IMG/VR virus record: IMGVR_UViG_3300020457_003081
Location: 1-31,566 of that record
From: a virus
Length of the DNA: 31,566 nucleotides
Direction: 5' to 3' (one strand)
Below are positions 1-22,086 of the stretch, in pieces. Under the pieces are notes generated by a model that worked only from the letters and a program-made list of their open reading frames with translations, was not told where the DNA came from and searched no databases. Made by a program: the position numbers and the translations under genes. Every line of letters begins with the position of its first letter. Position 1 is the stretch's first letter.

Positions 1-51
1 CATATCATCATCTGCTGGGCCTTCATTTAATATATCTTTTAATTTTATCAT
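1..51 (-). CDS. N-terminal fragment of a protein with a CTS-like leader
   Basis: The gene begins with ATG at 49-51 and runs off the left edge, so only 17 codons are visible. It opens with MIKLKDILNE followed by GPADDD. That leader is nearly the same as those of the genes starting at 352 and 4931, and its first 28 bases match the 4931 gene exactly at DNA level. A Shine-Dalgarno-like AAGGA lies about 7 bases before the ATG, just past the stop of the upstream gene. The leader ends in I-L-N-E followed by G, which fits the T4 gp21 prohead-protease preference. I infer a head-packaged protein whose leader is removed in the prohead. The function of the body cannot be seen. Confidence 0.7.
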   Translation of the reverse strand, partial: MIKLKDILNEGPADDDM

Positions 52-54
52 TTT
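27..54 (-). repeat. 28-base exact direct repeat, copy 1 (leader of partial gene)
   Basis: This sequence is identical to 4907-4934. It spans the start codon and codons 1-8 of the MIKLKDIL leader plus 3 bases upstream of the ATG. The downstream coding regions are unrelated, so the repeat behaves as a portable leader cassette. Confidence 0.9.
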
Positions 55-61
55 AATTCCT

Positions 62-352
62 TTATAATACACTCATTATAATATCATGATTACTAAAAGT
101 CTTTTTAGATTTAGCAAACAACATCTTATCTAATCTTGCTCTTGCATCTTTAGTGCTATTTGCGTCTCTTAGTAAATCTTCAACATACATTAAACCTTCA
201 TACGCCTTTATAAGTCTTTTATCTCCAATGGCTCTGGCTAAATCAGCACGTGCTGCAGTATGATTATTTCTATCTGTAGACATTCTGATTGAGTCTATAT
301 AGGCACCGCCCATTTCTTTCTTTTCTGATATTATGTCTTTAAGCTTTATCAT
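62..352 (-). CDS. Small helical protein with CTS-like leader (candidate internal head protein)
   Basis: This 96-residue protein of unknown function starts MIKLKDIISE and then KKEMGG. The rest is predicted helical and charged, with a run of Arg/Asp/Lys from about residue 25 to 85 and no membrane segment or recognised motif. An AGGAG lies 8 bases before the ATG and supports the start. It sits 3 bases after the 356-808 gene and 10 bases before the gene that leaves the window, so all three are probably co-transcribed. The leader matches two other genes here and resembles the short N-terminal capsid-targeting sequences of T4 internal proteins, which end in Glu and are cut by gp21. Packaging into the head is inferred. 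Confidence 0.75.
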   Translation of the reverse strand: MIKLKDIISEKKEMGGAYIDSIRMSTDRNNHTAARADLARAIGDKRLIKAYEGLMYVEDLLRDANSTKDARARLDKMLFAKSKKTFSNHDIIMSVL

Positions 353-355
353 TAT

Positions 356-808
356 TTAGCTCCTAAACAATTTATCGTATTCTTTTCTATCGTACTTTAC
401 ACCTGCGTATTTAGCAGCTTGGAATAGCGTAATATATTGAACTTCAGGTCTTACAAAAAATTTAGGTTCTTTTTCACTCAATTCCAAATCCATATCTGCT
501 TTTTCCCACGCTTTTTTTAGTCCCATTGCAGCTGATTTATTTAATGCATGACCCCAAACGCTTCCCAGCATTCCACTTTCTTTTCCAAAAGAAAAAGCTT
601 GAATTCCTGCAGAAGGTTGAAAGGACATATAAAGGTTTTTGATTTTAAATTTTCCCTTTTTAGCGGCTGCTTGGAAAATAGGTTTAGCAAATTTAATTTG
701 CTCTGGAGACATCTTTTCTTCCTTTATAACTGCTTTCTTCTTTTCCTTAAGAACAGCCTTTATGCCTTCTTTAATAATTGTTTTAAGTTGAGATTTTTTT
801 ATCTTCAT
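356..808 (-). CDS. Hypothetical basic protein, possible head-associated protein
   Basis: This 150-residue protein is unrecognised. Residues 1-32 are extremely Lys-rich and amphipathic (MKIKKSQLKTIIKEG, then repeated KE/KK), which would suit DNA or scaffold contact. The I-I-K-E before Gly resembles a prohead-protease-type site like those of the neighbouring leaders. The remainder (about 33-150) is a mixed globular region containing FKIKNLYMSFQPSAG and a Gly-rich stretch, ending in a charged tail. It ends 1 base before the 810-2597 stop side and 3 bases upstream of the next gene, within one tight minus-strand run. No catalytic motif is visible. A structural or ejected head protein is the best guess from context only. 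Confidence 0.7.
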   Translation of the reverse strand: MKIKKSQLKTIIKEGIKAVLKEKKKAVIKEEKMSPEQIKFAKPIFQAAAKKGKFKIKNLYMSFQPSAGIQAFSFGKESGMLGSVWGHALNKSAAMGLKKAWEKADMDLELSEKEPKFFVRPEVQYITLFQAAKYAGVKYDRKEYDKLFRS

Positions 809-809
809 T

Positions 810-2597
810 TTATTTTACCCTGGTTAATAATTTTTCTGCTGCCTTAAGCGCTTTTGCTGAAGGTTTAATTTTATCAAATACTTTATCGCTGTGCTCACCA
901 CTTGCCAATTTTATTAGCTTAGCCACTTTTTGCTTTACATCATCTAAAAGATCTTTAGATCGAGGATGTTTTAATTCATGAATCGATTCATTTGCAAAGA
1001 AGTTTTTCTGTAAAGTTTTCATCATCTGCAACGCTAGCTTTGCCTTCTTTGTTTCTTTTGCTTTATTTAAAATTTTAGAAAATTTTTCTAGTGCATGTAA
1101 AACATTTGTGTATGCACCCATCTTTGCTTGCAAAGGAGTATTTTCATTATAGATTATTTTATGTTCTTTCCCATCAGGATCTACTAAAACAATTTCACCG
1201 TCGTTATGAAGTTTACCCATTTGGTCTTTATCCATAGTGACAGTAGATTCATTTACTTTTCGAGCTTTTAAAAATTTATTTGCAAGGTGTTTTTCTTTTC
1301 CGTATTCTGCAAACTGCCATTTCTTTTTTAATGATTCTGGCAATTCATCTTCTTTAATTCCGTTATTAATAAATGATGCGATTCTTCTAACATCAACCAT
1401 TGGAACTTTTCTGTACCTATATTCTTCTAAAGTTTTTAAATACTTAAAAACTTCTTTAACAGTAACTTTCTTATTTACAGATTCTAATATACCTAGCTTT
1501 TTAGCTTGTTTAATTGCTTTTTCTAACTTGTCCATTGCTTTGCGAGCGTCTCTGTTAACGAAGCTCATGCTTCTATCTATATCTTTGTAATCTGCCATTG
1601 TGATACTCTTGCTAGCATCACGTATTTCTTTTGAAAACTTTAAGAAAAATGAATAAGCATTATCTAATTTTTTAACTATATCTTTTTCCTTAGCAACAGG
1701 CTCTCTTTCATTTAGTTTAATTTCATCTAAATCTGTCTTCTTAAAATCTTTTAAAGTTTTAACAACTTGTTGGAATTTATCTAAACGACCAATAATAAAA
1801 TCTTTAGAAGAAACCCCTAGATTTATGTAACCTTTTTTATCTATATAAAACGGAAGTGTATCATTACCACTAGCAGCCTTAACAGTAAAAAATGCACCAA
1901 ATACAGTATTACCGCTTACCCATCCAGACTTCATAGGTTTAAATTTTATAACTCTGATTCCTGCTTTTTTAAGTGCTTTTTCTAAAAACATTTTATAAGT
2001 CTCAAATCGAGCTTTATCATTTCTCAACATATCTTCAGACTCACCAATGCTTTCTTTCTTTTTTTCTCTATTAATTTTTTCACCTGCAGCTTTTGCATCT
2101 TTATAAGCTTTTGAGTTTTTAGGAGATGATTTTTCTCCTCTTTTCTTTTTTGCATTTATATTATGCCATAACCCTTTATTTTTAGCTTCATTAGCACTTT
2201 TATAATTGTCATCTACATAATTAAAAAATTCTTTCTTTTTATCATCTTCCAATTCAGCTGGTGATTTTACACCAAATTTTGATAATGCTGAATTAAAAAA
2301 TTTCTGGTAAGCTTCTTTATCTTCTCTTAACTCGTTTGCTCTTTTCATCATCTGTGCAATTTTTATAAGAGTATCTCTATCTTTTTTAGAAATATTCTTT
2401 AGCTTTCTGTCTTTTGCGATTGTTTGTAGAGCTTTTCCGTATGCTTTTGTAGACTCATTTTTTCCTTTAAAATTATCATCTACATAATTAAAAAATTCTT
2501 TTTTCTTACTGTCATCAAGTTCAGCTGGTGATTTTACACCAAACTTAGCAAGTGCAGAATTAAAGAACTTTTGGTACTTTGTTTGACTATCACTCAT
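810..2597 (-). CDS. Modular, polyprotein-like phage protein with duplicated KFF domain
   Basis: This 595-residue Lys-rich protein is built of blocks. Residues 7-50 and 96-138 are two copies of one domain (YQKFFNSAL, FGVKSPAEL, KKKEFFNYVDDN). Residues 138-155 hold a KGLWHNINAKKKRGE motif. About 197-290 form a mixed alpha/beta block containing RFETYKMFLEKALKKAG. The regions 305-370, 376-447, 452-530 and 545-595 are mostly helical. Between blocks lie short sequences ending in Glu that fit or nearly fit a T4 gp21-type site: ANE-A at 135, IGE-S at 184, LNE-R at 295, ILE-S at 370, VNE-S at 448 and ANE-S at 535. The gene has its own upstream gap with the ATATTTAT octamer 18 bases before ATG. I infer a head protein processed into several peptides. 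There is no enzyme motif. Confidence 0.8.
   Translation of the reverse strand: MSDSQTKYQKFFNSALAKFGVKSPAELDDSKKKEFFNYVDDNFKGKNESTKAYGKALQTIAKDRKLKNISKKDRDTLIKIAQMMKRANELREDKEAYQKFFNSALSKFGVKSPAELEDDKKKEFFNYVDDNYKSANEAKNKGLWHNINAKKKRGEKSSPKNSKAYKDAKAAGEKINREKKKESIGESEDMLRNDKARFETYKMFLEKALKKAGIRVIKFKPMKSGWVSGNTVFGAFFTVKAASGNDTLPFYIDKKGYINLGVSSKDFIIGRLDKFQQVVKTLKDFKKTDLDEIKLNEREPVAKEKDIVKKLDNAYSFFLKFSKEIRDASKSITMADYKDIDRSMSFVNRDARKAMDKLEKAIKQAKKLGILESVNKKVTVKEVFKYLKTLEEYRYRKVPMVDVRRIASFINNGIKEDELPESLKKKWQFAEYGKEKHLANKFLKARKVNESTVTMDKDQMGKLHNDGEIVLVDPDGKEHKIIYNENTPLQAKMGAYTNVLHALEKFSKILNKAKETKKAKLALQMMKTLQKNFFANESIHELKHPRSKDLLDDVKQKVAKLIKLASGEHSDKVFDKIKPSAKALKAAEKLLTRVK
2211..2576 (-). repeat. 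Two 99-base direct copies coding the duplicated KFF domain
   Basis: Bases 2211-2309 and 2478-2576 are collinear 99-base copies that stay clearly alike at DNA level: both begin ATCTACATAATTAAAAAATT and share CAGCTGGTGATTTTACACCAAA. They encode the two YQKFF...YVDDN domains of the 595-residue protein. The nucleotide similarity, not only the protein similarity, points to a recent internal duplication or to recombination keeping the copies alike. Confidence 0.85.
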
Positions 2598-2615
2598 TGC
2601 GCTTCCAGTTTTTTA

Positions 2616-2633
2616 ATAAATATTGATTAATCA
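2616..2633 (-). promoter_or_regulatory. ATATTTAT octamer with adjacent 10-bp palindrome
   Basis: On the gene strand ATATTTAT (2616-2623) lies 18 bases before the ATG of the 595-residue protein. It is preceded by the perfect palindrome TGATTAATCA (2624-2633). The same octamer occurs in four other intergenic gaps here. It is probably a promoter element or operator of the late transcription programme. The direction of reading is uncertain because ATAAATAT on the other strand matches the T4 late-promoter core. Confidence 0.5.
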
Positions 2634-2638
2634 CTAAA

Positions 2639-3298
2639 TTAACTCTTTTTTCTGCTGCTTGAAACTAATGCCTCTGATACTTGCGCGCTTAATACTGATT
2701 GTATTGTAAAGTATAAAGAAGGATTACGCTTTAGTAGGTCTTTAAACTCAGGTTGTTCCCAAACTAAGCATTCACAATCATGCTTAACTATACATGTTGC
2801 TGTGGCAGGTTTTTCAGTCAAGAATGACATTTCTCCTACAAATTGTCCGTCTTTTAATTGCGCAACCATTTTACCATCAACAGCAACATCAACTGTTCCA
2901 TTATAAATTAATATTAGATCTGTTACAGGCGTTCCGTGCTTTATTATTTTCTCTCCACAAGAGAACTTCTTCCACTCAGCAATCTTTGTTATCTTAAGAT
3001 ATTCAACAGGTGTCATTTCTTTAAATAGTGTCTCATATAACTCTTTGTCTTTTGGTGCCATTTTAATAGGACGTTTTTCATATATGATAACTGCTATATG
3101 ATAAACATTGACCAATATAAAAACTACATTCCAATTAATAGCCAACCACATAGGTTCAACTGGTATTGTGTAATTATAAAATACAGAAAATAAACTAGCT
3201 AAAACTGATAGCAGACGCAACCATAAAATGTCCTTGACTAGAAAAGAAAAGGCAATTAGTCCAAATGCTAAGTGACCAGCTATAGTTGCTATATTCAT
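2639..3298 (-). CDS. Popeye-like membrane protein with cyclic-nucleotide-binding domain
   Basis: In this 219-residue protein, residues 5-42 and 50-73 are hydrophobic and give about three membrane passes. Residues 85-200 form a cyclic-nucleotide-binding (cNMP) beta-barrel. The phosphate-binding cassette is visible at 152-169 (QFVGEMSFLTEKPATATC). The Arg that grips the cyclic phosphate in CAP and PKA is Ala (position 165), as in many bacterial Popeye-type and degenerate cNMP domains. Three short TM segments followed by a cNMP domain match the Popeye/POPDC layout. The domain would face the host cytoplasm. The stop is the last minus-strand gene before the 2.6-kb regulatory gap, and the start overlaps the previous stop by one base (TAATG), so it is probably made together with the two-TM protein. 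Ligand and role are unknown. Sensing or sequestering a host nucleotide signal is an inference. Confidence 0.8.
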   Translation of the reverse strand: MNIATIAGHLAFGLIAFSFLVKDILWLRLLSVLASLFSVFYNYTIPVEPMWLAINWNVVFILVNVYHIAVIIYEKRPIKMAPKDKELYETLFKEMTPVEYLKITKIAEWKKFSCGEKIIKHGTPVTDLILIYNGTVDVAVDGKMVAQLKDGQFVGEMSFLTEKPATATCIVKHDCECLVWEQPEFKDLLKRNPSLYFTIQSVLSAQVSEALVSSSRKKS

Positions 3299-3624
3299 TA
3301 GTCATCTGCGTGTTCTAATAACTTTACATCATCCTCAGCATTGTTAAACCAGAAGTCAATTACTTTTGCAAATGAACCAACAAATCCACCTAACATTAAT
3401 AATAAGATTTCTTTCCATCCACCCATCACATCAACACCACTACTCATAAAGTAAATCATCAGAGCAAGTATTGCTGAGAATAATGATACTACTGCAATTG
3501 AGATGTACCACTTTTTATTTTGTCTAAATTTTATTATACCAACCAGTTCTTTATTTATTTCGTGCTTTTGGTCCTGCACATGCATTTCTGGTGTGTCTAA
3601 TAAATTACTCTTTTTTTCTGGCAT
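3298..3624 (-). CDS. Small two-TM membrane protein (holin-like or partner of the Popeye-like protein)
   Basis: This 108-residue protein has a charged N-terminal region (1-38), two hydrophobic segments at about 39-62 (WYISIAVVSLFSAILALMIY) and 72-93 (EILLLMLGGFVGSFAKVIDF), and an acidic tail (EDDVKLLEHADD). Two segments and a small size are compatible with a class II-type holin or an accessory membrane protein. A second, better holin candidate lies at 4928-5341. The one-base overlap with the Popeye-like gene suggests coupled translation and a possible shared complex. An AGGAGATAG-type ribosome site lies just upstream of the ATG. No family could be named with certainty. Confidence 0.7.
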   Translation of the reverse strand: MPEKKSNLLDTPEMHVQDQKHEINKELVGIIKFRQNKKWYISIAVVSLFSAILALMIYFMSSGVDVMGGWKEILLLMLGGFVGSFAKVIDFWFNNAEDDVKLLEHADD

Positions 3625-3635
3625 AACTATCTCCT

Positions 3636-3920
3636 TTATTTTATGTAGTCACCGTCAGACTTTAAAAAACTAAACCACGAATCAAATGCAATATCAGCAT
3701 CACGTGCCAAATCTTTAAATTTATTTTTATTATTATAAAGAACAGTATGACTTATTGGTGCGCCTCCGTGTATCTTTTCAAATAGCTTTGCGCATTCATA
3801 TAATAATTTAACTGCTTTATTGCATTTCATTTCTAATTTTAAAACATCACGTTTTGTAGCAGCATAATCTTTCGGATCGTATGCTTCACTTACTTCTAAA
3901 AATTCTTTTAAGCTTACCAT
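3636..3920 (-). CDS. Small hypothetical protein with CTS-like leader
   Basis: This 94-residue protein of unknown function starts MVSLKEFLEVSE and then AYDPKD. The leader is a short amphipathic helix ending in S-E before Ala, comparable to the MIKLKDIL leaders nearby and to the T4 internal-protein leader style (short helix, then Glu, then Ala). Residues 20-94 look helical, with Lys/Asp/Phe-rich segments and two Cys (about 33 and 43). Its start lies inside the upstream gene: the two overlap by 7 bases. Head packaging is an inference from the leader and its neighbours. Confidence 0.7.
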   Translation of the reverse strand: MVSLKEFLEVSEAYDPKDYAATKRDVLKLEMKCNKAVKLLYECAKLFEKIHGGAPISHTVLYNNKNKFKDLARDADIAFDSWFSFLKSDGDYIK

Positions 3921-4570
3921 TTTTTACAGCTCCAATATCTTGCTTTATGTTTTGGTCCAGGGCTATCACAATTATGTCTTGCTCTGAAAGATGCTCTTCT
4001 ACCTGGATCTGATTTTTTAATTCTATTCTTTTTACCTTTAGCACCAAAGTTAACTTTAACAACATTACCTTTAGGATTTTTTACATATACTTTAAATTTA
4101 GCTGTGTCGCCTTGCATGGGTTTATTTAATTTTACTTTTCTTCCCTGGTATTCTGCTTCATGCATAGCTTCTTTTTCTGTGCTAAATTCGAGTGTGTATC
4201 CTATTCCAGTTTCTTCACTCCACACATCATATGACTCAGAACTTTTCCAATGACAGTGTTCATTTACGGCTTCTTTAATTTTTTTACCACCCATTTGTTT
4301 ATAAATCTTTATTAGATTTTTAAGGTGGTCTTCATCTCTAGCATTAGTAACTCTTCCTTGTTTCTCAATCTTCTTCTGAAACATTTTGATAGCATCTTCT
4401 AACTTTTTAAGTTCCATACCAGCTTCATTTATAGATTCAAACTTTTTCATAAGTTTTTTCACTTTTCTATTTCCTTGTAAATCTCTCCAAATATCAGGTT
4501 TGTATTTTCTCATATACAAAAGATAATTGTATTGTTCTTTATCAGAAAGTTTTTTTACTTCTGTTTTCAT
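3914..4570 (-). CDS. Hypothetical head-region protein with Cys/His-rich C-terminal motif
   Basis: This 218-residue protein has a helical N-terminal half (1-100) that contains SINE-AG (46-51), a good prohead-protease-type site, and AVNE-H (101-105). Residues 115-175 look beta-rich, and the region ends with a basic segment. The C-terminus (187-218) has an arrangement I have seen in marine T4-like phage proteins: DPGRRASFRARHNCD, then PGPKHKARYWSCKKW. His199, Cys201, His208 and Cys215 could bind a metal. It lies 1 base after the 4572 gene's stop and overlaps the next gene by 7 bases. A role in the head or as an ejected protein is inferred from the cleavage-like sites. Confidence 0.75.
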   Translation of the reverse strand: MKTEVKKLSDKEQYNYLLYMRKYKPDIWRDLQGNRKVKKLMKKFESINEAGMELKKLEDAIKMFQKKIEKQGRVTNARDEDHLKNLIKIYKQMGGKKIKEAVNEHCHWKSSESYDVWSEETGIGYTLEFSTEKEAMHEAEYQGRKVKLNKPMQGDTAKFKVYVKNPKGNVVKVNFGAKGKKNRIKKSDPGRRASFRARHNCDSPGPKHKARYWSCKKW

Positions 4571-4571
4571 T

Positions 4572-4931
4572 TTAGATCTCTACGTATCCATATACTTGAC
4601 CACGACCATAAGTACCAAATTCTAAATCTTTTCCATCAATTGCTTTTTTTGGGCTTTTTAAATACCAGAGTGTTTTTCCACGAATTTCACCTTTTGCTTT
4701 TAAATTTCTAATTTTAATTTTAAAAGATTTTTTGTACTTATCTAATTCACCATTCTTTTTTTGTAAAATAATACCTGGAGCTTTTTTATGATATTTATTA
4801 TCAACAACAACATGATCACCTTTTACTGCTAAGAAATGTTGTACATATCCACCACTTACTACAAGCGCAACTCTGTCACCTGGCTTCGGCTTTTCAGCTG
4901 CTTCTGTTAATATATCTTTTAATTTTATCAT
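4572..4931 (-). CDS. Small beta-rich protein with CTS-like leader MIKLKDILTE
   Basis: In this 119-residue protein of unknown function, residues 1-10 (MIKLKDILTE) followed by Ala-Ala form the clearest capsid-targeting-like leader in the window: the predicted cut after L-T-E before Ala fits the T4 gp21 rule. Residues 15-119 are rich in short beta strands (VALVVSGGYVQHFLAV, HVVVDN, GTYGRGQVYGYVEI), like a small SH3- or OB-type barrel. The start overlaps the holin stop by 4 bases (ATGA), so translation is probably coupled. The body shows no homology to the other leader-bearing proteins, so only the leader is shared. Confidence 0.75.
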   Translation of the reverse strand: MIKLKDILTEAAEKPKPGDRVALVVSGGYVQHFLAVKGDHVVVDNKYHKKAPGIILQKKNGELDKYKKSFKIKIRNLKAKGEIRGKTLWYLKSPKKAIDGKDLEFGTYGRGQVYGYVEI

Positions 4932-4934
4932 TTT
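4907..4934 (-). repeat. 28-base exact direct repeat, copy 2 (leader of 119-aa gene)
   Basis: This sequence is identical to 27-54. Together with the weaker third copy at the start of the gene beginning at 352, it links three otherwise different genes through the same first codons. Confidence 0.9.
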
Positions 4935-5341
4935 GTCACCTTCTTAACTTTTTCAATTGAACGACCAGCAAAATAAGCCGCATATACGGTCATTAATAAA
5001 GTTTGATATACAGGTACATATGCTTCACCTATTGTGAACTCACCCATATTACCGTCAAATACACTTAGTATTACAAAAACACCTGTTAAGAAGATAAGTG
5101 TAATCGGTCTTATGTTTTTTGATAACCAACTTCCGTGTTTTAAATCTGCTTCCCATCTTGCAGAAACTTGTGCTTGTGCTGCTTGTTCTGCTGCTGCTAA
5201 TATCTGTGTAATTTTTTGTTTAGCCTCTTCCTTCTCTTCACCAGAAGTATGTAGGTCATCTACTATATTTCCGATGTCTTTAATTGCGTCTCCGCCTAAA
5301 AGGCTTCCTGCTGCTTTTCCTAATGTTGCTAAAAAACTCAT
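4928..5341 (-). CDS. GTA-type 3TM holin family protein
   Basis: This 137-residue protein begins with a Gly/Ala-rich segment (MSFLATLGKAAGSLLGGDAI), followed by a charged helix (about 30-65). The signature region is RWEADLKHGSWLSKNIRPIT (about 63-82), then hydrophobic segments at about 80-97 and 108-125 and a basic tail. SWLSKNIRP before the membrane segment is characteristic of the holin family found in gene-transfer agents and many marine phages (GTA_holin_3TM). The expected role is forming inner-membrane lesions at lysis. The endolysin is not obvious in this window. An AGGAGATAAG site precedes the ATG. The stop overlaps the next start by 4 bases. Confidence 0.8.
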   Translation of the reverse strand: MSFLATLGKAAGSLLGGDAIKDIGNIVDDLHTSGEEKEEAKQKITQILAAAEQAAQAQVSARWEADLKHGSWLSKNIRPITLIFLTGVFVILSVFDGNMGEFTIGEAYVPVYQTLLMTVYAAYFAGRSIEKVKKVTK

Positions 5342-5352
5342 AACTTATCTCC

Positions 5353-5715
5353 TTATATGCCTCCACGAATATCGTGCTGTGCTTTAGTATATTTTTTATC
5401 TCCAATATCAGATGAGTCTGCCATTATACTTACACCTGGTGGTGAATCATATCCCTTTTGTATTCCAGCTTTTTTTAGTCTATCTTCTACCATATCAGCT
5501 AAATCACCAGTGCCTTCAGGGTTAGGTTTTCTATAATAATTAAAACCTAAAGCTATAGTTATTCTATCCTCATCATTTAGGTGAACTGTAGCTTTAACTT
5601 TCAGTCCCTTCAGTGCTTTTACTATTTTATCAAATGTCTTTTTATCTGATTTGTTTTTGTTTTCACTTAAGCTACGCTTCCATTTCCGAAAATTTTTCCA
5701 AATATTGTAATGCAT
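5353..5715 (-). CDS. Small hypothetical protein
   Basis: This 120-residue soluble protein is not recognised. The N-terminus is strongly basic and aromatic (MHYNIWKNFRKWKRSLSE, then NKNKSDKK) and could be another leader ending in L-S-E. Next come an alpha/beta segment (about 30-60, KIVKALKGLKVKATVHL), a strand pair (RITIALGFNYY), an acidic helix (DLADMVEDRLKKAG) and a hydrophilic tail. The start overlaps the thioredoxin-like gene's stop by one base. It is likely co-translated with the gene before it. Function cannot be assigned. Confidence 0.65.
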   Translation of the reverse strand: MHYNIWKNFRKWKRSLSENKNKSDKKTFDKIVKALKGLKVKATVHLNDEDRITIALGFNYYRKPNPEGTGDLADMVEDRLKKAGIQKGYDSPPGVSIMADSSDIGDKKYTKAQHDIRGGI

Positions 5716-6086
5716 TAGTATTGCTCTCCAGCTAATGCTTCTTCAATTGCATCCTTTATGTCACCTGGTTCAACTTCAATTACGCCATCCATATCACCTT
5801 TCCAAGTATCTATTTTGTCACCGTTAACATACAGCGCAATTGAAGGATAATTTCTTATCCTTAATTTTTTACAAGTCTTTTTAGCTTCTTCTGACATCAC
5901 TTGTAGTATTGATGCATCTTCGTGCCCTTTAACACCCTTCACATAATCCATGCCATCGCTCTCTGCCCATTTAGATCCAAAAACAACTACTACGACACCG
6001 TCACCAATTTTTTCTTTAAAATTTTTATCTGTTACTTGAGCACTCAACGAGGCTAACAGAAATAATAATAAAAGTATTTTTCTCAT
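5715..6086 (-). CDS. Exported thioredoxin-fold protein lacking CXXC
   Basis: In this 123-residue protein, residues 1-16 are a classic Sec signal (MRKILLLLFLLASLSA), with cleavage expected before Gln17. The mature part shows a thioredoxin pattern: strand VVVVVFGSKW (31-40), helix 60-73, then a strand with the cis-Pro at 81 (NYPSIALYVNG) and a C-terminal helix (EPGDIKDAIEEAL). Where thioredoxins carry WCxxC, this protein has KWAESDG, so it has no redox pair; one Cys remains at 72. It would act in the periplasm as a binding or chaperone-like domain, not as a disulfide oxidoreductase. It precedes the holin group in the same operon. The fold is read with fair confidence. The role is unknown. Confidence 0.75.
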   Translation of the reverse strand: MRKILLLLFLLASLSAQVTDKNFKEKIGDGVVVVVFGSKWAESDGMDYVKGVKGHEDASILQVMSEEAKKTCKKLRIRNYPSIALYVNGDKIDTWKGDMDGVIEVEPGDIKDAIEEALAGEQY

Positions 6087-6095
6087 AACAAACTC

Positions 6096-6689
6096 CTATT
6101 TGTCCCGTTTCCTCTTTTCGAGGTCTTTAATATCTTTTCGTAATTCTTTGATAATATCTTTAATATCTTCTATGTCACCGTATGCTTCATCCATATCATC
6201 TTGAAGTGTACCTACTTGGTCTTTATATTGCTCGTATGATCTTGGCCAGTTGTAACCTTCCGGTCTTGATGGATATTCAGCCTTGTATAAAGTTTCTAGA
6301 CTTGGTAACTCTTTTGCTTCTTGAATTTCACCCTGTAATGTATACCACATACCAATTAATGAAGCCAATCCAGTTCCAGCTGCAACCATTGTTTGTACTG
6401 ATAATGTAAATTTTGTATCTAAAACTTTATCTTCGCTTATCTCTATTGGTTCTTTTCCTGTTGGTTCTATTTTCTCAGAAATTTCTTCTTGTTTTGCTTC
6501 ATGCCCGTTTCCGTGTTCTAATATAATTTCTGTTATATCTTCTAGAGAACAAAAACCTTTATCAACAAGTATTTCTCCAAGAGTGCGTTTATCACCTTGT
6601 ACTTGTTCTTGCAAACATTGATTTAATTGGCGCTTTGTAATAATATCATGTTCACAAAGTAGCTTACCTATTTTAACATCTCCGTTCAT
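6096..6689 (-). CDS. Membrane protein with MshEN-like (GspE N-terminal) domain and C-terminal coiled coil
   Basis: In this 197-residue protein, residues 5-58 read KIGKLLCEHDIITKRQLNQC...TLGEILVDKGFCSLEDI, the repeated LGxxL / L..QL / Q pattern of the GspE/MshE N-terminal domain. In MshE and relatives this domain can bind cyclic di-GMP. An acidic linker follows (64-92), then a membrane segment at about 97-117 (SVQTMVAAGTGLASLIGMWY), a Pro/Tyr/Trp-rich stretch (135-152) and a charged coiled coil (155-197). It lacks an ATPase domain, so it is not a secretion motor. The stop is 10 bases before the thioredoxin-like gene, and the start overlaps the previous stop by one base. Whether the ligand-binding residues are intact cannot be decided by eye. 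Confidence 0.7.
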   Translation of the reverse strand: MNGDVKIGKLLCEHDIITKRQLNQCLQEQVQGDKRTLGEILVDKGFCSLEDITEIILEHGNGHEAKQEEISEKIEPTGKEPIEISEDKVLDTKFTLSVQTMVAAGTGLASLIGMWYTLQGEIQEAKELPSLETLYKAEYPSRPEGYNWPRSYEQYKDQVGTLQDDMDEAYGDIEDIKDIIKELRKDIKDLEKRKRDK

Positions 6690-6925
6690 TACTTATCCTT
6701 ATAATAGCTTTTAGGGTGAAACTTAAATTCCACCACTTTAGCATCTTTGCTTATACTTTTACCATCTACCAATACTTCTACTGGTGCGACTTTACTTGGA
6801 TCTTCATACCAATACGCTGCTTTATACCCACCGTCTTCTAATAATTTTATAAGCATACCTCTATCATATTCCTTGTCTTCGGCTTTTAGTATAGCTGTTT
6901 TACCTCGTTTTAATTCTAAGTCCAC
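6689..6925 (-). CDS. Small hypothetical protein
   Basis: This 78-residue protein is not recognised. It is charged and soluble, with an N-terminal strand/Lys segment (MDLELKRGKTAILKAEDKEY), a helix (MLIKLLEDGGYKAAYWY) and a C-terminal beta pair (VEVLVDG, VVEFKFHPKSYY). There is no signal peptide, membrane segment or Cys. Both ends overlap neighbours by one base (TAATG junctions), so it is translated as part of the lipoprotein-MshEN-like chain. Context gives no specific function. Confidence 0.7.
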   Translation of the reverse strand: MDLELKRGKTAILKAEDKEYDRGMLIKLLEDGGYKAAYWYEDPSKVAPVEVLVDGKSISKDAKVVEFKFHPKSYYKDK

Positions 6926-7530: not shown

Positions 7531-7676
7531 CGTTTAACTCCAAATCTATTTGTAGACTGTCCAGCATTTTTTGCCAACCATTTTTTGTGTTGATTAGCTG
7601 TCCTGCCTTCAGAAGCCCATTTTTTATTAAGTTTAGCCCTTTGCTGTTTTTTTAATTTTGCTTTTTTATTCGGCAT
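7527..7676 (-). CDS. 49-aa highly basic protein fully between two overlaps
   Basis: This short gene fills the apparent gap between the barrel-like gene and the lipoprotein gene. Its ATG (7674-7676) overlaps the upstream TAA by one base, and its TGA (7527-7529) overlaps the lipoprotein ATG by three (ATGA). The product begins MPNKKAKLKKQQRAKLNKKW, then has EGRTANQHKKWLAKN and ends RFGVKR. It contains about one third Lys/Arg and few acidic residues. The exact fit of both ends argues strongly for a real, translationally coupled gene. Similar short PNKKAK-type proteins occur in marine phages by my recollection. Nucleic-acid or ribosome contact is plausible from composition but not shown. Confidence 0.8.
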   Translation of the reverse strand: MPNKKAKLKKQQRAKLNKKWASEGRTANQHKKWLAKNAGQSTNRFGVKR

Positions 7677-8977
7677 TAAAATCCCATAAATTGATAGTTA
7701 ACGCCAAACTTAAAGTCATAAGCAGGACGCTCCCAATAATATAAATATTTACCTTCTGCAAAAACTCCAAGATTGTCTTGTAGCTTTACACCTAATATTG
7801 CACCGTAATCATAATCGTTCCACTGCATCCACATCGGCTCCATAAATATAAATTCGTGTGGTTTTTTATTTGCGTCTTTATGTTCTGCGTATGCATCTGC
7901 ATTGTGGTAAGAATATAGATCGTGACCATAGTGATACGGTAACCAATTACCCCAAGCATGTAACCACCAGTTATCTGCGTGATAGTAAAAGTCTGTACCT
8001 AATACAATTGATGTTTCCCTTTGAAATCCTAAATCTTTTTTAACTCCGCCAATGTATTCTTCTAGCATATCAGGAAAGTGGTACAAGAAATATTCTCTAT
8101 CAGTATATGCGAATATTCTTCCAGCTTCATCTCTCCATAACCAATCGTGTCCCCAATATTCGCCACCTTCGTTCCAAAATGGACCATCACCCTCAATAGG
8201 AACCCATTCACCGTTTATAAACTCTAATAATTCGTCTTGTTTCCAAATCGGATTTCCGTCATCATCATATCCTTCTAACATACTCTCTTGATACCACATA
8301 TTGTCGTCAATACCGAATGCTTCTTCAGCAAACTTCCACCATTGTCCCCTATACCAAGTTGTATCTAATACCATAGCATCAAATCCATAAACTGGATGTT
8401 GTCTGTGTTTTACACCTGCACTAAATGTAAGACTATTATCAATTACCTCTGGAGTCCACTTAAAACGTAAATCACCTTGACCATACTTAATATCTTCTAA
8501 TCCTAATTCAGTCCATCCAATTTTAGCCATCCACCAATCACCTGTATATCTTAACCAATATTCTTGATTCAAATACTCATTACCCCATTGACGACCTTCT
8601 GTCCACTTAAATAAGAATTCCCATCCTTTCACTGGTGCTATTGTTGCACTTTCGTTTGCATTCTTTTCAGAACCATCATACCAAGTTCCACCTCTTCCTG
8701 CATTCTTAACACCTCGTTTTGGTTCGTATTTAAACCTACCAATTTTTCTTAATCCAAAAGATTTTTGAAAATCCGGTTTTAGTTCTCTTTCATCCCTGCT
8801 GACTTCTATCTGTCCAGTACTCAAACCGCCAATAATAGCAAACCTATCATCTTGGTGTCTTGGTGCATTGAGGCTGAAACTCGCATAAGCTGTGGAATAC
8901 TTTAAAAATTTCCATAGCTCTGTCTCTGCAAACAAAGATGAGGTTAACAATAAACCTATTACAATTTTCTTTAACAT
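7676..8977 (-). CDS. Outer-membrane beta-barrel-like (porin-like) protein
   Basis: I start the gene at ATG 8975-8977, not the upstream in-frame ATG at 9002-9004, because AGGAGA lies about 7 bases before it; the product is 433 residues. It opens with a Sec signal (MLKKIVIGLLLTSSLFA, cleavage before Glu). The rest is rich in Trp, Tyr and Gly with alternating amphipathic strands (QEYWLRYTGDWWMAKIGW, TSIVLGTDFYYHADNWWLHA, GAILGVKLQDNLGVFAEG). The C-terminus ends YDFKFGVNYQFMGF, a terminal-Phe strand as in Gram-negative outer-membrane proteins recognised by BAM. About 220-300 is an acidic Trp-rich insertion that looks like a loop. A porin or receptor-masking role is inferred. It sits downstream of the fibre genes and upstream of the lipoprotein. 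Confidence 0.75.
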   Translation of the reverse strand: MLKKIVIGLLLTSSLFAETELWKFLKYSTAYASFSLNAPRHQDDRFAIIGGLSTGQIEVSRDERELKPDFQKSFGLRKIGRFKYEPKRGVKNAGRGGTWYDGSEKNANESATIAPVKGWEFLFKWTEGRQWGNEYLNQEYWLRYTGDWWMAKIGWTELGLEDIKYGQGDLRFKWTPEVIDNSLTFSAGVKHRQHPVYGFDAMVLDTTWYRGQWWKFAEEAFGIDDNMWYQESMLEGYDDDGNPIWKQDELLEFINGEWVPIEGDGPFWNEGGEYWGHDWLWRDEAGRIFAYTDREYFLYHFPDMLEEYIGGVKKDLGFQRETSIVLGTDFYYHADNWWLHAWGNWLPYHYGHDLYSYHNADAYAEHKDANKKPHEFIFMEPMWMQWNDYDYGAILGVKLQDNLGVFAEGKYLYYWERPAYDFKFGVNYQFMGF

Positions 8978-9010
8978 CTGTTTTCTCCTAATTTGGACAT
9001 GCATCCATTA

Positions 9011-13223: not shown

Positions 13224-16200
13224 TTATTCATTGTCTATTTCAACATCAACAAATGTATCGCCTGATCTTCTAGTAGTAACTCTATAAGGATTAACTTCAG
13301 TTATTTCAATAGCAATTTTATTTCCATCAGGTATTGTATCACCATTTTCTAAACAGCCACCATACATTAAGTTAAACATACCTGTATGTGAAGTAAATAG
13401 CGATTCTTTTTCTGATTTTTCAAATGATGATGAATACCAAAGATTTAGTGATTTACTTACTGATGAACTATAATGATATATTCTATCATCATTTAAAGCT
13501 GACTTAACAGATCCTGTCACCATTGGCATTAATATTTCATGAAAAATATTTCCACCACCACCTGAGTAGACTTCACCTTCAGTATAATTTCTCTCTAGCG
13601 GATCAATTAACGGATCAACTTTAAACCCTCTAAATTGTTCATAATTAAATCTATTTGCATTTGCAATAGACTCATAATCACTTCTACTAGAAGTTAATGG
13701 AACATTTGCCTCATATGACCATCTAAAATGCGAAGCCATATCATCCCTAGAAGAAGTATACTTTCTATGAGCCAGTATGTTTAAGTTAGATGTTCTGCTT
13801 TCATATGAACCTGTATCTAAGTTGTAAACTTTTCCACTCATCTGTGATGTATACATATCATTTGATGATGTCAATAAACCTGTGAACGGAAGATTTATAG
13901 ATCCTGATTTTGTGTATTCAGCTGCGCTTTGACTATACAACGTGTAATGTCTTATTCTTCCTCTATAATTTCTTTCTTCTACGAATGGCTTATTACCAAC
14001 GATCACTTTAGGTCTTTCTAAAAGTGTTGGTTCTATTAATATACCAATATTCTTTTTAGCTCTTGCAGGAGAAAGTTTTCTAAGATGATCAAATAAACTT
14101 AAGTCATAATACTTTATTAATTTTAAATAATCCCAGAAATTAAATTTTGTTGTCCACTTTTGCCAGTATGTATCTGATATTCTATCTAATCTTCCGTGAT
14201 AATATCTATCTGCATAAATATCTCTTGGGTCACCTAAGTAAGATCCGAAGTCCAAATCAGCTAATGACAATATAATATCTTCATTTATAACATCACTTGG
14301 TGCAAAGAATATTCCTAATTTATTTGAATCAAGTGGTGCTGTATCATATGAGCTTAACTCAACTCTTTCAGTTGTACTTAAAACAGGTGGAACACCATCT
14401 GAATAAATAGTTTTTCTATTATCTAGTCTGAGCTTATTAGATGTTTTGTTTAAACCTATCGATGGTATAAATCCTTTTTGCCTGTCAGATACAGAACTAA
14501 AATTTATTACATTTGCGAATCCAGATCCAGTTGCATATACTTGTCCACCTGTTAGTGAATAATCTCTCACTACATTTGGACTTTGATTTAAGTTTGCCTT
14601 GTCATCCATTGAAAATCTTAAATTCATATCATAGAATGATGAGCTTTCATGATTTCCGTTTATTGCTTTTGGCGCAGCAACGTGATTAAAAAATGCAGCT
14701 TCTTTTAGAGGTGTACTCCAATATCTCCATTCCATTAATGAACCTGAAAATTTACTTCCATATAATGTATTTTCTTCACTTGTTTGTGTCTTACCGCCTA
14801 TATGCCAGTAATTATCTCCTATTGAGCTTGACGCATACCAGCTGGCTAGTAAACCAGAACCAGACAGAGTCATACTAGCAGAAGCTTTAGTTATAATTTC
14901 ATCTGTTCCTGCATCATAAAATCCTGCATAAATATCAAAGCTGTGTGTTGCCTGAGTTGTCTCACCTGTAAGTGACTGTTCAGAGTAACTACTACTTATT
15001 GAAGCTTGCCTTCTCCTAACCATAACAGACCAATACTCATTATTATAAAATGGCAGTGGCTGTAAACTAGCAGTAACAAATCCTTCACTCCCAGATAAAG
15101 CAAATGCCAATTTACCTTTTGTATCTGAACCACTTACATTATGAATGTAAATCGCAGATTCGACCATATTATTAGAATTATTTTTTGTAGCTATTAATGT
15201 GTCTCTTTCTATTCCTGTTTTAAATCTAAATTCTATTGTATCACTTGTTCTGTCTGTAAGACTATTTCTATACCACGGTGATGCAAGCCTTTGTGATCCG
15301 TGGAAGTCTAAAGCGTATGTATATCTTTGTTTTATTTCAAACTCAGGTGATCCTCCTTCTATTTTTGGGCCACCGTATTCTTGTATTCTTAATATAGATG
15401 TTGGTATTCCATAAGCAGCAATAAGAGCTTTTAAAGACTGCTTTGTTCCTTTTGTTTTTAGAATATAAGGCATTGTAGATAATATTCTATTCCATATTTC
15501 TCTTGTTACATCTTTTTGAGATTTCTTTGTAAACCTTACATTAAATTCACCTGTTCCGCTTCCTGATTCTGCAAGACCTAAATGATATTGAGGCATTCTA
15601 ACTAAATCACGTCCTTCAAGCATTGTAAAGCCAAGAGATTCAGCAACTGGTTGAACAAGTTGTTGTGATATTCCTTTTGTTATATCTTCACTTCTTTCAT
15701 GAACATCTGTCATTGCTTTAATGTGTGTCCATATAATGTCGTAATGGTGTCCCATCATATCCATAAATCTTATGAAAGGCTCATTATCAACATCATAAGT
15801 TACGTGTGCTGGTATTAAATTAATAAGACGATTTGTATTTTTCCTATCAAATACTGATGCTGAAGAAATTAATTTATCATGCCAGGTTGTAAATTCAGAA
15901 CTACTCACAGAAAATAATTTATATGGATTTGTTAGTGTACCATCACCAGAAAATTTAGGTGCAGCATTATCATATTCTATACCGTTAGAACTAGAAACAT
16001 ATGAAGATGATTTAAAATACATGTAATTTTCAAAATCATCAAATCCGTTTACAACTTTTCTTTTTTCCATATCCCAAAATTTAATTTGGTCTGATGAACC
16101 AGAAACTATTGATCCAGATGTTTGTCCTGTAATATACGGCGTCTGTGAAGTTCCACCTAAAGACTGGCTTTTTTGTGTATATAATTCTATTGTTTCTAAT

Positions 16201-19200
16201 TTGTCTTTAAAGTTTTTAACTCTTTTTTCAACTGATCCGAAGTGTGAGAAATTTTCAAATACACTATAATCAACATTTATACTTACATCTAATAAGCTGC
16301 CACTAAATATCTTATCTTCTAACTGTTTCCTAACATCAGTGTTTACACCTACAAGATCCGTGTGACTTCTATATTCTGTTTCACGTCTAACGATGACAGG
16401 TTCTATTTCACTAAGCTTTGGTGCCTTTAAAACAGTGTCAGGTATTACCTCATCAATAAACGGAATCATATCAACTGTTTCAACAAGATCTGGTGTTACT
16501 TCATTTGCAATATATGCAGCATCAAATTCACTTATCTCATCTGGTAACGGTTCTAATAATTTATATGCTATTGAGCCAGGATAGTTTGTCGCATTAACAG
16601 GTTTAAAATTAACTACAAGAGATTCGACATCTCCACCAAATACAACTTTAGTGTATAGATTATCAGAATCTTTAAGTCTGTATCTTACAAAATAATCATT
16701 AAACTGATGTTCTATATTTGGTGAATCTACACTTCCACTTATTGCGTTTATTGTTCCTCCAAATTCTCTGTATGATTTATCAACAATTAACCTATTTTCT
16801 TCTATGTCTAAAATTTTTCCTTCATACCTAGCCATTATATCTTCAATAACTTCATCTGCCTCTATATAACCTACTTCATAGCCTGCACCAAATGATGTGT
16901 ATTTATTAACAGGTATATTTGCGTCTATTCTTCCTTGCTCATCTGCAGCTTCGTCATACGTCTGCTCTACGACGATAGTGTCACTCTCTAAGACTTCTTC
17001 TATTTTTAAAAGTATAGGACCTAACTTTGCAGTTTGATCTACTTTAATTCTTTCGTTTGATGTCAACAAAATATCAATTCTTACTTTGTCAACCCACAAC
17101 TCACCAAAACCACCTTTATGACCTAACATTCTTATACCACAATTTGTATATAATCCAAATGAATTATCTTCTGGTATAATAAAATCAAAATGTGCCTCTT
17201 CCCATTCACCTAATTCATGACATGAAACATATCCTTTTGCTCTTGTTGCAACTGTACCGTCCGGATTTTTTGTTAGGGTATCTGTTAGCGTAACTTTTGT
17301 AAAAGACCTGACGCCATCTGCGCCCGTCTGAACTTCTTCTTCAGTGTCACCTGCAACATAATTCCACTGAACGCCATTCCACTTCCAATTACCGTCAGCT
17401 GAATTTGTAATGTCGTTATTAATAATATCTGATGAAGGATACGGCTGAACATCTGTATATTGTGTTTCATAGTTACCGTTTGCCAAACTCTGATAAAACG
17501 GTACTACAGCTTGATTTACATAATAAAAAGATTCTTTCTGAAGTAGTTGTATCATTGATTCCCATGCATCACCATTCCATACCCATCCTAATGCTTCTGA
17601 TAAGTAGATAAATCCTCCTATTGAAACTATGGCTGGCATTATAAATCCTTCACCAGTATTTAACGGATCGTTAGCGCCTATTTGCTGCCATCTTTGACCT
17701 GGCGGATTTGTTCCTGTATAAGACCATCCAGCAGTAATTAATTCATCAGCAATAACCCATTTACTTCCGTTCCAATCCCAGTCATTATAATCATCTGTTG
17801 GAGGTCTGTTGGTAGGTGCTGGAGTTGGTGGTTTATCTTCTCTATCTGGAACAGCATTTCCACCAGAAACATTTCCAAATTCTGTGTAGCCACAATCTTT
17901 CGGCCCACCAGATGGAGGCCTTGCAGCAGTTCCAATAATTCTCGCATCGTCAGGTGTTGTAGAGGTTCTTATTTCAAAACTATAATCATTCTTTGTCATT
18001 TGGTCAACTGTCAAGACTTCTGGAATATCTATTTCTCTTAATTTATTTCTGTCATCGAGCTTTGTTATAAATGAAACTTTATCTTCAGTCACATCATCTA
18101 TTTCATCTTCCATTTCAATATTGTCCATACTAGTTATTACAAATTCACCATTTGCAATTCCAACTCTGTAATTTAATAATCCTTGATTTGGAACGTATCC
18201 TCTTCTTAGCCCATTTACTTCATTATAGTTGTTGTTTAAAAGATCTAGTATTAATTGATTTGATAATCCTTCTCTGTAAAATCCAGTTAATAAATCAATC
18301 ATTTCATTTCTAATATCTTGTCCTGTTATAAACGGTGTTGGTGGTGACTCAATAACTTCTTTATAATAATGTAGTAATTGTACTTGAGCACCCTTCCTAC
18401 CACCATTATCAAAGTCAGGATTTTGTGGTATTGCTTTTTGTTGCCATGTAATTCTTACTGTATCTCCTGGCTTTGCGCCGTAAGCTGCAAGTGCGCCTAT
18501 TGCGCTATTGTCACCATACTGACCATCAATGCCAGTTCCAATCGCCAACCATCTATGTTTAAAGCCTTCTGAATTAATTACATCGCCTGTTATTCTCGGG
18601 TCTTCTAGTCCGTCTCTTACATAATATCCTGTGACGGGATCATTATATGCAGCGAGTGATAATACTTTTCTTTGTTCTAATATTTCAGGCAGATAGTTTA
18701 AGTCAGGAAAATACATACATAATCCGTTATCAACACCTTTGTCCAACAACCAATGTGCATGATAGCCTATATTTGCATCTCCAACTTGTGACCATTTTGC
18801 TGCAGGATTAAGTGAGCTAAATCCATTGCCCCACAAGCCTCTATCATACTCGTCTTTTTGAGCAACTGCTTGTGAATGTAAATTTGTATCCCATTGAAAT
18901 GAAAAATCAACCCCTATCTGTGTCCATGATTTTGATCCGATATATGATCCAGGTATTGTAAAAGAAGAATTTACGAAAGGTTGTAGCTGCCTTATTTCTC
19001 TTAGGTCAAGCTCATTTGTAACCATCTGTGAGCTTAGGTCATCTATTGTCATCGCGTCTCTAATTAAGATATTAGATCCTTCCATTTTTGGAATGAATAT
19101 CTCATCACCAGATCCGAGATCTGCTTTAAGAGTTCTTTGTATAATAGGATCATCACTGTCAGGATCGATAAATTTAATTGTGCCTGACTCAGGTATCTCT

Positions 19201-20654: not shown

Positions 20655-20977
20655 TACAGCTCCTTAAATTCTCTGTCAATATAATCGAATGTGTCTTCTT
20701 TTGTTCTGTATCTTCTTTGGTAAACTTCAATATATAATTTCTGTGATAAATTAGAATATGTCTCACCATTATTAAAGTTCTCAAAAAGTCTTATAACACC
20801 ATTGTTATCTCTTAAAGATGTTTTTAAAATCTTATTTTTAGTTTCCTCAGTGCTGCCTTCTTTTGTTAAAAATTTTGATAAATCTTTTTGAAATTTTTGT
20901 TCATACTTAATCTCATCTCTTTCTTTAAGAGACTGATAGTGTAAATTATCTCTTAGCTCTTCTTCTGTGTACGGCAT
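20654..20977 (-). CDS. Small charged helical protein between wedge genes
   Basis: This 107-residue protein is unrecognised. It is almost wholly helical and charged (PYTEEELRDNLHYQSLKER, KFQKDLSKFLTKEG, LYIEVYQRRYRTKEDTFD), with no Cys, signal or membrane segment. Both ends overlap neighbours by one base, so it is translated between the DNRLRE-like and giant wedge proteins. A baseplate assembly factor or small wedge subunit is possible because of that position. T4 gp53 is a candidate functional counterpart by order only; no sequence match was seen. Confidence 0.7.
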   Translation of the reverse strand: MPYTEEELRDNLHYQSLKERDEIKYEQKFQKDLSKFLTKEGSTEETKNKILKTSLRDNNGVIRLFENFNNGETYSNLSQKLYIEVYQRRYRTKEDTFDYIDREFKEL

Positions 20978-22086
20978 TATTCTACCACCTTAAATGATAT
21001 TTTGCTATCTAAAAATTCTACTGTTTCATTTATACCACTTCCACTAATAACTTTAAAAGAGATGTCGTAGTATCTTTCAGGCTCTAAGCCTTCTGTTCTT
21101 AATTTAAAAAAGTTACCTGTTGAATCACAACTAAGTTTTGATCCGCTTCCAAACGGTATTATTGTATGATTTGTTTTTGCATCTTTAATAGAGTAAAAAC
21201 TTGATGCTGATGGAAAATACTGATTTGTTAAATATGCAGACGATGTTCCAAAAGTTCTAGCTGGGTATCTTTCTCTACCTTGTACTCTTATTTTTGTTGT
21301 TGTTCCCTTCTTGTATTGTGGTCTGACACTTGTCATATAGGCTTGTATTTTTCCTAGCTCATCTAGTGCAAGTGGGCTAAGTGAACCAGTCGACCAAACA
21401 GCATCATCCCAAACAGCTTCTATTGTTGGCTTAAAAATTGTGTGTGAGTCTGATGAGAAGAATTTTAAAATACCATAATTTTGTGTTGATTCTTCTATAG
21501 CTGTTGTCCTTCGAACAACTAATCCTTCATTGGCAACTGTTCCACTGACAAATGTGTTTACTATATCTGTAATATCTATTCTTGCATCTGATCCTGACTT
21601 ACTAAAAGAAAATGATGCAGAATATCCTGATCCTGTATAGTATGTTGCTCCCCAATTTGCCTCGCTTCCTGAGAACCATTCTAAAGATCCTGTTTCGCCT
21701 GTTCTATATCTCCAGCTGACACCTTCACGTATGTGCGGATCATCAGACAACTTACCATCACCTTCAGTCCAACTTTGTGATACAACATTTATTGCAATAT
21801 TATTATTGTCTCTTGTTAGCTCAAATGAACCTGCATCGTACAAGTTTAAATAATATTTTGCATCATTTGTTATTGAACCGTCAGCAAGTGATTTAGATAT
21901 TCTAGTTATTGGAAATTGTAAAACAAATCTTTGGATTGTTCCAACACTAGTTGATGCTGCTTGAAATGTTTTTCCAACTTCTAATACTTCATCACCACCT
22001 AAGTTAAAATTACTTGATGTTCCTAATGTATCTGCACCTCTTATAAGTGATGCATCTTTATTTATTCCTACGAAATAATGTGCCAT
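20977..22086 (-). CDS. DNRLRE-like virion structural protein
   Basis: I choose ATG at 22084-22086 (369 residues) because AGGAGA lies 7 bases upstream. The in-frame GTG at 22104 would place this ribosome site inside the gene. The product starts MAHYFVGINKDASL. Residues about 30-210 look like a DNRLRE beta domain (GTIQRFVLQFPI, VSQSWTEGDGKLSDDP, SWRYRTG, ARIDITDIVNTFVSG, GLVVRR). The C-terminal half has KKGTTTKIRVQGRERYPART and a final beta segment, possibly Ig-like. The position directly after gp6 suggests a baseplate-peripheral protein. The ATG overlaps the gp6 stop (TAATG). Confidence 0.8.
   Translation of the reverse strand: MAHYFVGINKDASLIRGADTLGTSSNFNLGGDEVLEVGKTFQAASTSVGTIQRFVLQFPITRISKSLADGSITNDAKYYLNLYDAGSFELTRDNNNIAINVVSQSWTEGDGKLSDDPHIREGVSWRYRTGETGSLEWFSGSEANWGATYYTGSGYSASFSFSKSGSDARIDITDIVNTFVSGTVANEGLVVRRTTAIEESTQNYGILKFFSSDSHTIFKPTIEAVWDDAVWSTGSLSPLALDELGKIQAYMTSVRPQYKKGTTTKIRVQGRERYPARTFGTSSAYLTNQYFPSASSFYSIKDAKTNHTIIPFGSGSKLSCDSTGNFFKLRTEGLEPERYYDISFKVISGSGINETVEFLDSKISFKVVE

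Follow-up and report, generated by a model that had tools for sequence, protein, structure and literature searches.

Background

Proteins that phages carry into their hosts besides DNA are known for a few cultured phages only. Among described systems, the closest to the element treated here is the capsid-targeting sequence (CTS) of phage T4, borne by the internal proteins (IPs) IPI to IPIII; the propeptides of gp24 and Alt are of this kind as well. The T4 protease gp21 cuts after L/I-X-E, the N-terminal ten residues of IPIII are enough to bring about its incorporation, and within this leader residues 4 and 7 govern targeting and residues 8 and 10 processing (PMC9026906). In the T4 record, ipII and ipIII begin with MKTYQEFIAE↓A and gp24 with MAKINELLRE↓S, each leader having ten residues (arrows mark the cut, predicted for all other proteins below). 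Here we describe a leader of the same design, MIKLKDI[L/I]xE, in the IMG/VR record IMGVR_UViG_3300020457_003081 (31,566 bases; the window, meaning the whole stretch of DNA analysed), a fragment with late genes from a T4-like phage that has a contractile tail. The tag is used on dozens of unrelated proteins in a group of aquatic T4-like phages, and it very probably represents a new class of T4-type head-targeting and release tag, cut by a gp21-type protease and employed on a large scale.

The leader shares with the T4 CTS its length of ten residues, a hydrophobic or aromatic residue at positions 4 and 7, Leu or Ile at position 8, a free position 9 and Glu at position 10. At the key positions of IPIII it reads L4, I/L7, L/I8 and E10, and its closest likeness in T4 is the gp24 leader MAKINELLRE. 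As in T4, unrelated bodies stand behind one leader, and a gp21-family protease is encoded in the genomes of relatives. Unlike the T4 CTS, the leader has another sequence and belongs to another phage lineage, it precedes at least 64 body families versus a handful, up to nine tagged genes occur per contig, leaders are swapped with other leader classes, and fused, polyprotein-like versions exist; unlike in the T4 internal proteins, the tagged domains include NUDIX, exonuclease, Acb1-like and lysozyme domains. The ejection-protein propeptides of the giant phages phiKZ and SPN3US, as described in the review (PMC9026906) and in abstracts, offer a second likeness, in that head proteins are cut after a short Glu-ending motif by a distant gp21 relative and many proteins are ejected; judged by these descriptions and not by sequence comparison, the present leader differs in being near-constant and portable and in following the T4 hydrophobic-x-E rule. 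A cleavable secretion signal peptide was also considered and rejected, as the leader has no long hydrophobic core, carries three charges in its first six residues and ends in hydrophobic-x-E, not small-x-small.

The leader in the window

Three minus-strand genes with correctly placed starts at 51, 352 and 4931 begin with MIKLKDI[L/I]xE, and their bodies are mutually unrelated, as the original prediction had it (Table 1). Its suggestion that L-T-E before A and L-N-E before G fit the T4 gp21 rule was likewise borne out: all three genes carry a short N-terminal leader that ends in L/I-x-E in the T4 register. Without mismatches, the degenerate MIKLKDI[LI] pattern occurs exactly three times in the window, each time at a gene start and on the same strand, and 0.65 chance sites are expected in a search allowing three mismatches; the reversed pattern was found neither in the window nor in any of 66 other records. 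The cut is predicted after E10 in the leader peptides MIKLKDILTEAAEK and MIKLKDIISEKKEM.

The body of the gene starting at 51 has a match in contig G037, where it follows a different N-terminus, MIKLRDLLDKSEQ...APVQE↓GPADDDTKAAD, and the junction again lies right after hydrophobic-x-E. Gene 4572-4931 has one homolog (L455, 69% identity), which starts with MIKLKELLKE↓G; its AlphaFold2 (AF2) model, built from two sequences, is unreliable (predicted local distance difference test, pLDDT, 52). A Pfam search of the window cluster returned only a weak DUF5754 match, and the tagged bodies had no match of note.

Table 1 Coordinates and predicted junctions of features in the window
Feature	Coordinates	Strand	Description
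Leader gene 1	22..51 (leader)	-	MIKLKDILNE; gene truncated by window edge; predicted cut before GPADDD (MIKLKDILNE↓GPADDDM)
Leader gene 2	62..352	-	MIKLKDIISE (352-323), then 86-residue all-helical body; MIKLKDIISE↓KKEMGG
Leader gene 3	4572..4931	-	MIKLKDILTE (4931-4902), then 109-residue body, fold not assigned; MIKLKDILTE↓AAEKPK
Other-class leader gene	356..808	-	MKIKKSQLKTIIKE (808-767), then body; MKIKKSQLKTIIKE↓G
Weaker candidate	3636..3920	-	MVSLKEFLEVSE (3920-3885), then body; MVSLKEFLEVSE↓AYD
Weaker candidate	5353..5715	-	Trp/Phe-rich leader MHYNIWKNFRKWKRSLSE (5715-5662), then body; MHYNIWKNFRKWKRSLSE↓NKN
Modular protein	810..2597	-	595 residues; two YQKFFNSALxKFGVKSPAEL modules; several internal hydrophobic-x-E sites
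Modular gene	3914..4570	-	49-residue N-terminal module ending ESINE (4570-4424), ESINE↓AGMEL; then AGMELKKLEDAIKMF module and phrog_7595 C-terminal domain
Untagged homolog of a tagged family	6689..6925	-	Not a tagged gene; evidence of leader gain or loss
Membrane protein	2639-3298		Reads as cyclic-nucleotide-binding-like domain; not a head-protein type
Membrane protein	3298-3624		Not a head-protein type
Holin	4928-5341		Not a head-protein type
Small secreted-looking thioredoxin-like protein	5715-6086		Just beyond the interval of the original prediction; not a member of the tag set

Spread of the leader among unrelated proteins

To obtain an unbiased set, IMG/VR was searched for MIKLKDIL at a start codon with nothing required downstream, and families were defined by BLASTP single linkage at 1e-3. 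This set comprises at least 107 distinct open frames in at least 64 unrelated body families, so that one leader stands on otherwise unrelated proteins. Among the matches listed, Glu occupies position 10 in 58 of 64 families (background Glu 6.6%, p about 1e-61), and hydrophobic-x-E ends at position 10, 11 or 14 in 63 of 64 when small register shifts are allowed. Where the leader has an extra residue (ILLSE, ILINE, ILLQE), the hydrophobic residue two before Glu is restored. Among bacterial and archaeal genomes (257 Gb), the MIKLKDIL DNA pattern was present in only 68 stretches; Glu stood at position 10 in 7 of the 25 cases in which it opened a frame, and several of these look viral by their bodies.

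A wider collection, in which the search itself required Glu, contains 218 leader genes with 96 unrelated bodies; E10 is partly imposed there, and Glu counts from such searches were excluded as evidence for Glu. With one representative per family (96), residues 2-4 are invariant in amino acid while their third codon positions vary, and L4, I/L7 and L/I8 are each present in 96/96, these three being partly set by the search patterns. Amino-acid conservation ends at residue 10 and is at background level from residue 11 on. Since synonymous codons vary and the amino acids stay fixed, the leader is a peptide element and not a DNA signal. The highest numbers of leader genes per contig are nine in G065, in tandem arrays, and eight in G020. 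No description of the leader or of its scale of use was found in the open-access literature, the search not extending to subscription papers and preprints.

Exchange of leaders at the predicted site

Homologous bodies occur behind different leaders, and the exchange takes place at the predicted cut. One body family bears MIKLKDILKE↓A, MDNFNFKQYLKE↓G, MNRIKMWKRYRDWRDLNE↓Q or MKKSELKQIIRE↓A, and another bears MIKLKDILTE↓A or MWSQWKDFRLNE↓K. In a junction test, hydrophobic-x-E lay at most three residues from the body start in 52 of 93 homologs with a different N-terminus, compared with a background of 22% (p about 3e-12). This test was used because the simpler count of hydrophobic-x-E anywhere in the N-termini had to be discarded, its background in these proteins being too high.

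Alternative leader classes are also present in the window itself, at 808 and 5715. A leader similar to that at 808, MKKSELKQIIRE, takes the place of MIKLKDILKE in front of a homologous body (L451 versus L091), and gene 356-808 has a homolog in G037 with 58% identity. Trp/Phe-rich leaders like that at 5715 stand in for MIKLKDIL on other bodies (L370, L443), and the G037 homolog of this gene has an unrelated N-terminus with ...ESISE↓AKHNKKIFDKVV just ahead of the conserved body. The original prediction had counted both 5715 and 3920 as similar starts ending in Glu; the first holds loosely, with L-S-E, whereas the second, with V-S-E or F-L-E, fails the strict L/I-x-E rule. In the G037 homolog of the latter, the N-terminus diverges after MVSLKE, and T-L-K-E↓N replaces V-S-E↓A in a nearby but not identical column; this gene is the weakest case among the tagged genes of the window. 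Two genes of the same kind (starts at 808 and 4570), as well as the modular gene 810-2597, had been overlooked. Gain or loss of the tag is illustrated by the protein at 6689-6925, which is 57.7% identical (E 3e-22) to L008_1406: L008 has MIKLKDILLE in front and the window protein has none.

The modular gene 810-2597 matches phrog_28651 (E 1.8e-16), and one of its segments has a homolog in G020 (102213-102575), where gp21 lies ~1 kb upstream. The AGMELKKLEDAIKMF (AGMEL) module of gene 3914-4570 recurs in an open reading frame of G025 directly downstream of gp21, as SVNE↓APMELNKIKDAIKMF, behind a different, DUF3008, N-terminus. We note that the proteins encoded immediately after gp21 in G025 (72140-73399) and G021 (110903-111499) have DUF3008 (PF11450) as their N-terminal module, and so does a modular protein of G037 (20632-21648). 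DUF3008 may be a head-core docking domain; literature searches returned nothing on it as a head module. Another observation concerns window 810-2597 and gp191 of Flavobacterium phage immuto (L454 9841-12366), in which repeated modules and internal hydrophobic-x-E sites give the appearance of core or internal-protein polyproteins.

A broader proposal, for and against which we see equal weight, is that uncultivated T4-like phages possess a code of interchangeable head-docking modules that end at hydrophobic-x-E cuts, sometimes with several cuts per polyprotein, and that carry a swappable injected payload including anti-defence enzymes. The modules of this putative code would be MIKLKDILxE, MxNFxLxxFLxENKLTxN...LKE, M..W.xWRxxLNE, MKKSxLKxIIKE, DUF3008 and YQKFFNSAL.

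The gp21 protease and the head genes of relatives

Fifteen leader contigs are 100 kb or longer, and 14 of them have a match to the gp21 family (PF03420). A gp21-type protease elsewhere in the same genome had been proposed as a check of the original prediction; since the window is a fragment without the protease, its absence can be judged only in relatives, where all but one of the large leader contigs encode it. Seven large contigs (G003, G006, G009, G019, G020, G025 and G031) combine leader, gp21 and a window-like gp6 at 40-50% identity, and because of this gp6 they share the broad lineage of the window. No more than a few genes separate leader genes from gp21 in L461/L458, and the same holds for G025, G061 and G066. 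Moreover, the major capsid proteins of leader genomes have LISE↓A, LVRE↓A, LLKE↓G or LIVE↓T where T4 gp23 has FLTE↓A. In one 368 kb leader contig (G057, L478), the gp21 match (71514-72392) falls into two pieces within one 367-residue frame, separated by ~157 residues that the model lacks between its positions 95 and 102; this stretch may be an intein or an inserted domain.

The two cultured phages with a relative of the window's gp6 are immuto and Microcystis phage Mel-JY01. They belong to the same gp6 lineage and likewise have gp21, but the MIKLKDIL leader itself is absent from their genomes. In immuto, gp188 reads MRLLELLRE↓AKEAIEDF and is a homolog of a leader-bearing family, while the adjacent gp193 and gp194, whose bodies are unrelated, have another leader in common and stand shortly before terminase, gp20, gp21 and gp23. 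For gp190, the mature start is predicted after MKKSQLRQIIKE, and for gp193/gp194 after FLTE/FLVE or LLKE/ILKE. The annotation of gp188 (MW353176 112217-112531, 104 residues) as a tRNA(Ile2) agmatinyltransferase looks wrong, the family being one of unassigned function.

The predicted head targeting and gp21-type cutting are well supported by these comparisons, because the leader keeps the T4 register, gp21 accompanies it in 14 of 15 large contigs, leader genes are located in head modules, and the site is kept through swaps and fusion. Several points weigh on the other side. The figure of 14 of 15 covers leader contigs only, and one 115 kb leader contig (G022) has no detectable gp21. The window, a 31.6 kb fragment, contains no head genes and no gp21-family protease. 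The filter of the junction test is imperfect, some of the 93 rows still being of the MIKLKDI class with shifted alignments; the enzyme labels of the bodies are profile matches; and virion mass spectrometry data could be found for none of the phages with exactly this leader.

Alternative explanations

The homologs L457-L463 of gene 62-352 (74-77% identity) keep ISE or INE before the body despite fusion to another protein, and E10 is invariant in nine homologs, fused and unfused alike. Two of them, L461 and L458 (77% identity), are flanked by gp21 on one side and the gp22-like scaffold/gp23 genes on the other and have the structure MVKLKNIINE↓SAPGYENRKFGDPLPT...KKTISE↓KKELGSAY, that is, two passengers, with the second leader lost and I-x-E retained; a neighbouring core gene starts with MKLKDILKE↓S. 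The AF2 model shows a compact helical body (pLDDT >90) behind a low-confidence leader (pLDDT 54). Fold comparison gave no match to a solved structure (best E 3.8), the matches being unnamed viral proteins only, and no homologs were found in cultured phages. As the relatives' copies sit among prohead-core genes, the family could be a core component with the same likelihood as an injected effector.

This location raises the question of whether the tagged proteins in general are parts of the prohead core or scaffold, cut in the prohead, most fragments then leaving or staying as filler and not acting as effectors. Such a role would account for the position of the gene 62-352 family and other leader genes between gp21 and the scaffold/capsid genes, and the many-site modular proteins (window 810-2597, immuto gp191) resemble T4 core proteins, which undergo cleavage into fragments (PMC9026906). 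However, bodies of the NUDIX, RNase_T, GNAT, kinase/NT5C, ADP-ribosyltransferase, M23, lysozyme and Acb1-like types are hard to explain as scaffold, and we consider this role possible but rather unlikely.

It is improbable that the leader targets the tail tube, as do leaders of extracellular contractile injection systems, or a membrane, the likeness to a gp21 site being coincidental. The cluster of the window does follow the tail and fibre genes and adjoin the holin, and ALKKIIKE occurs near the N-terminus of a tail-region gene (start at 25373, minus strand), but neither destination agrees with the near-invariant hydrophobic-x-E with its sliding register, the site kept in internal fusions, the co-occurrence with gp21 or the head-module position. 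For a secretion signal peptide, the leader is both too short and too highly charged. A function of the element as DNA or RNA (translation start region, promoter or recombination site) would suit its portability and its place at the start codon, but is largely refuted by the freely varying synonymous codons, together with E10 kept across the free position 9 and the lack of a conserved block in the upstream DNA, and has very little to recommend it. Equally hard to credit are functionless relics of recent duplication or recombination within one phage, which leader genes standing in tandem, as many as nine together, might suggest, because codons diverge while amino acids stay constant, across 64 to 96 unrelated bodies and many contigs and with a sharp stop of conservation at residue 10.

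Tagged proteins and proposed mechanism

The head-targeting tag preferred here would act as follows. The ten-residue, partly amphipathic N-terminus of a late-expressed protein would bind the prohead core through hydrophobic positions 4 and 7, which would incorporate the protein into the prohead. During degradation of the core, the gp21-type prohead protease would cut after hydrophobic-x-E (positions 8 to 10), and the body freed inside the head would stay with the packaged DNA. Most enzyme-like bodies are probably ejected into the next host, whereas some, including the gene 62-352 family, may be core components.

Pfam searches with 94 representatives detected NUDIX, RNase_T, GNAT, ADP-ribosyltransferase, a zeta-toxin-like kinase with NT5C, M23, lysozyme and ATP-grasp among the bodies. 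By analogy with T4 Alt and the IPs, ejection of such enzyme-like bodies is likely. One leader protein outside the window (L357, 8704-9255) has a 2'-5' RNA ligase superfamily match above the cut-off, i.e., it is 2H-phosphoesterase-like, and a match to Acb1, a counter-defence against the cyclic-oligonucleotide-based antiphage signalling system (anti-CBASS), below the cut-off (E 2.7e-4). Judged by its sequence, it is a candidate head-delivered anti-defence enzyme; an anti-defence action of tagged proteins is a hypothesis, with this one weak domain match in its favour.

As a simple rule at sequence level, the leader nominates dozens of payload families, mostly annotated as "hypothetical", in uncultivated aquatic T4-like phages and predicts the exact mature N-terminus of each tagged protein. 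It also suggests that early-acting functions, among them an Acb1-like phosphoesterase, NUDIX hydrolases and ADP-ribosyltransferases, arrive ready-made.

Other genes of the window

Nearly all genes of the window are on the minus strand. They include gp25-like and gp6-like baseplate wedge proteins, a 2476-residue protein and putative fibre/structural genes, and the low-coordinate end holds a mixed set in which the cluster of tagged genes lies downstream of the tail and fibre genes and next to a holin. The original prediction had taken this cluster as a whole for head-packed proteins; packing and cutting are supported by comparison for the tagged genes, but the holin and the two membrane proteins do not belong to the set. 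Delivery with the DNA and a possible action against host defence, which it also put forward, are hypothetical for the proteins of the window. The membrane protein at 2639-3298 is 79% identical in G037 and G025 and is odd cargo for a phage. Finally, the late operon contains a secreted aromatic-rich protein (7676-9004) that resembles an outer-membrane or surface protein and has a look-alike in G037 (15614-16912).

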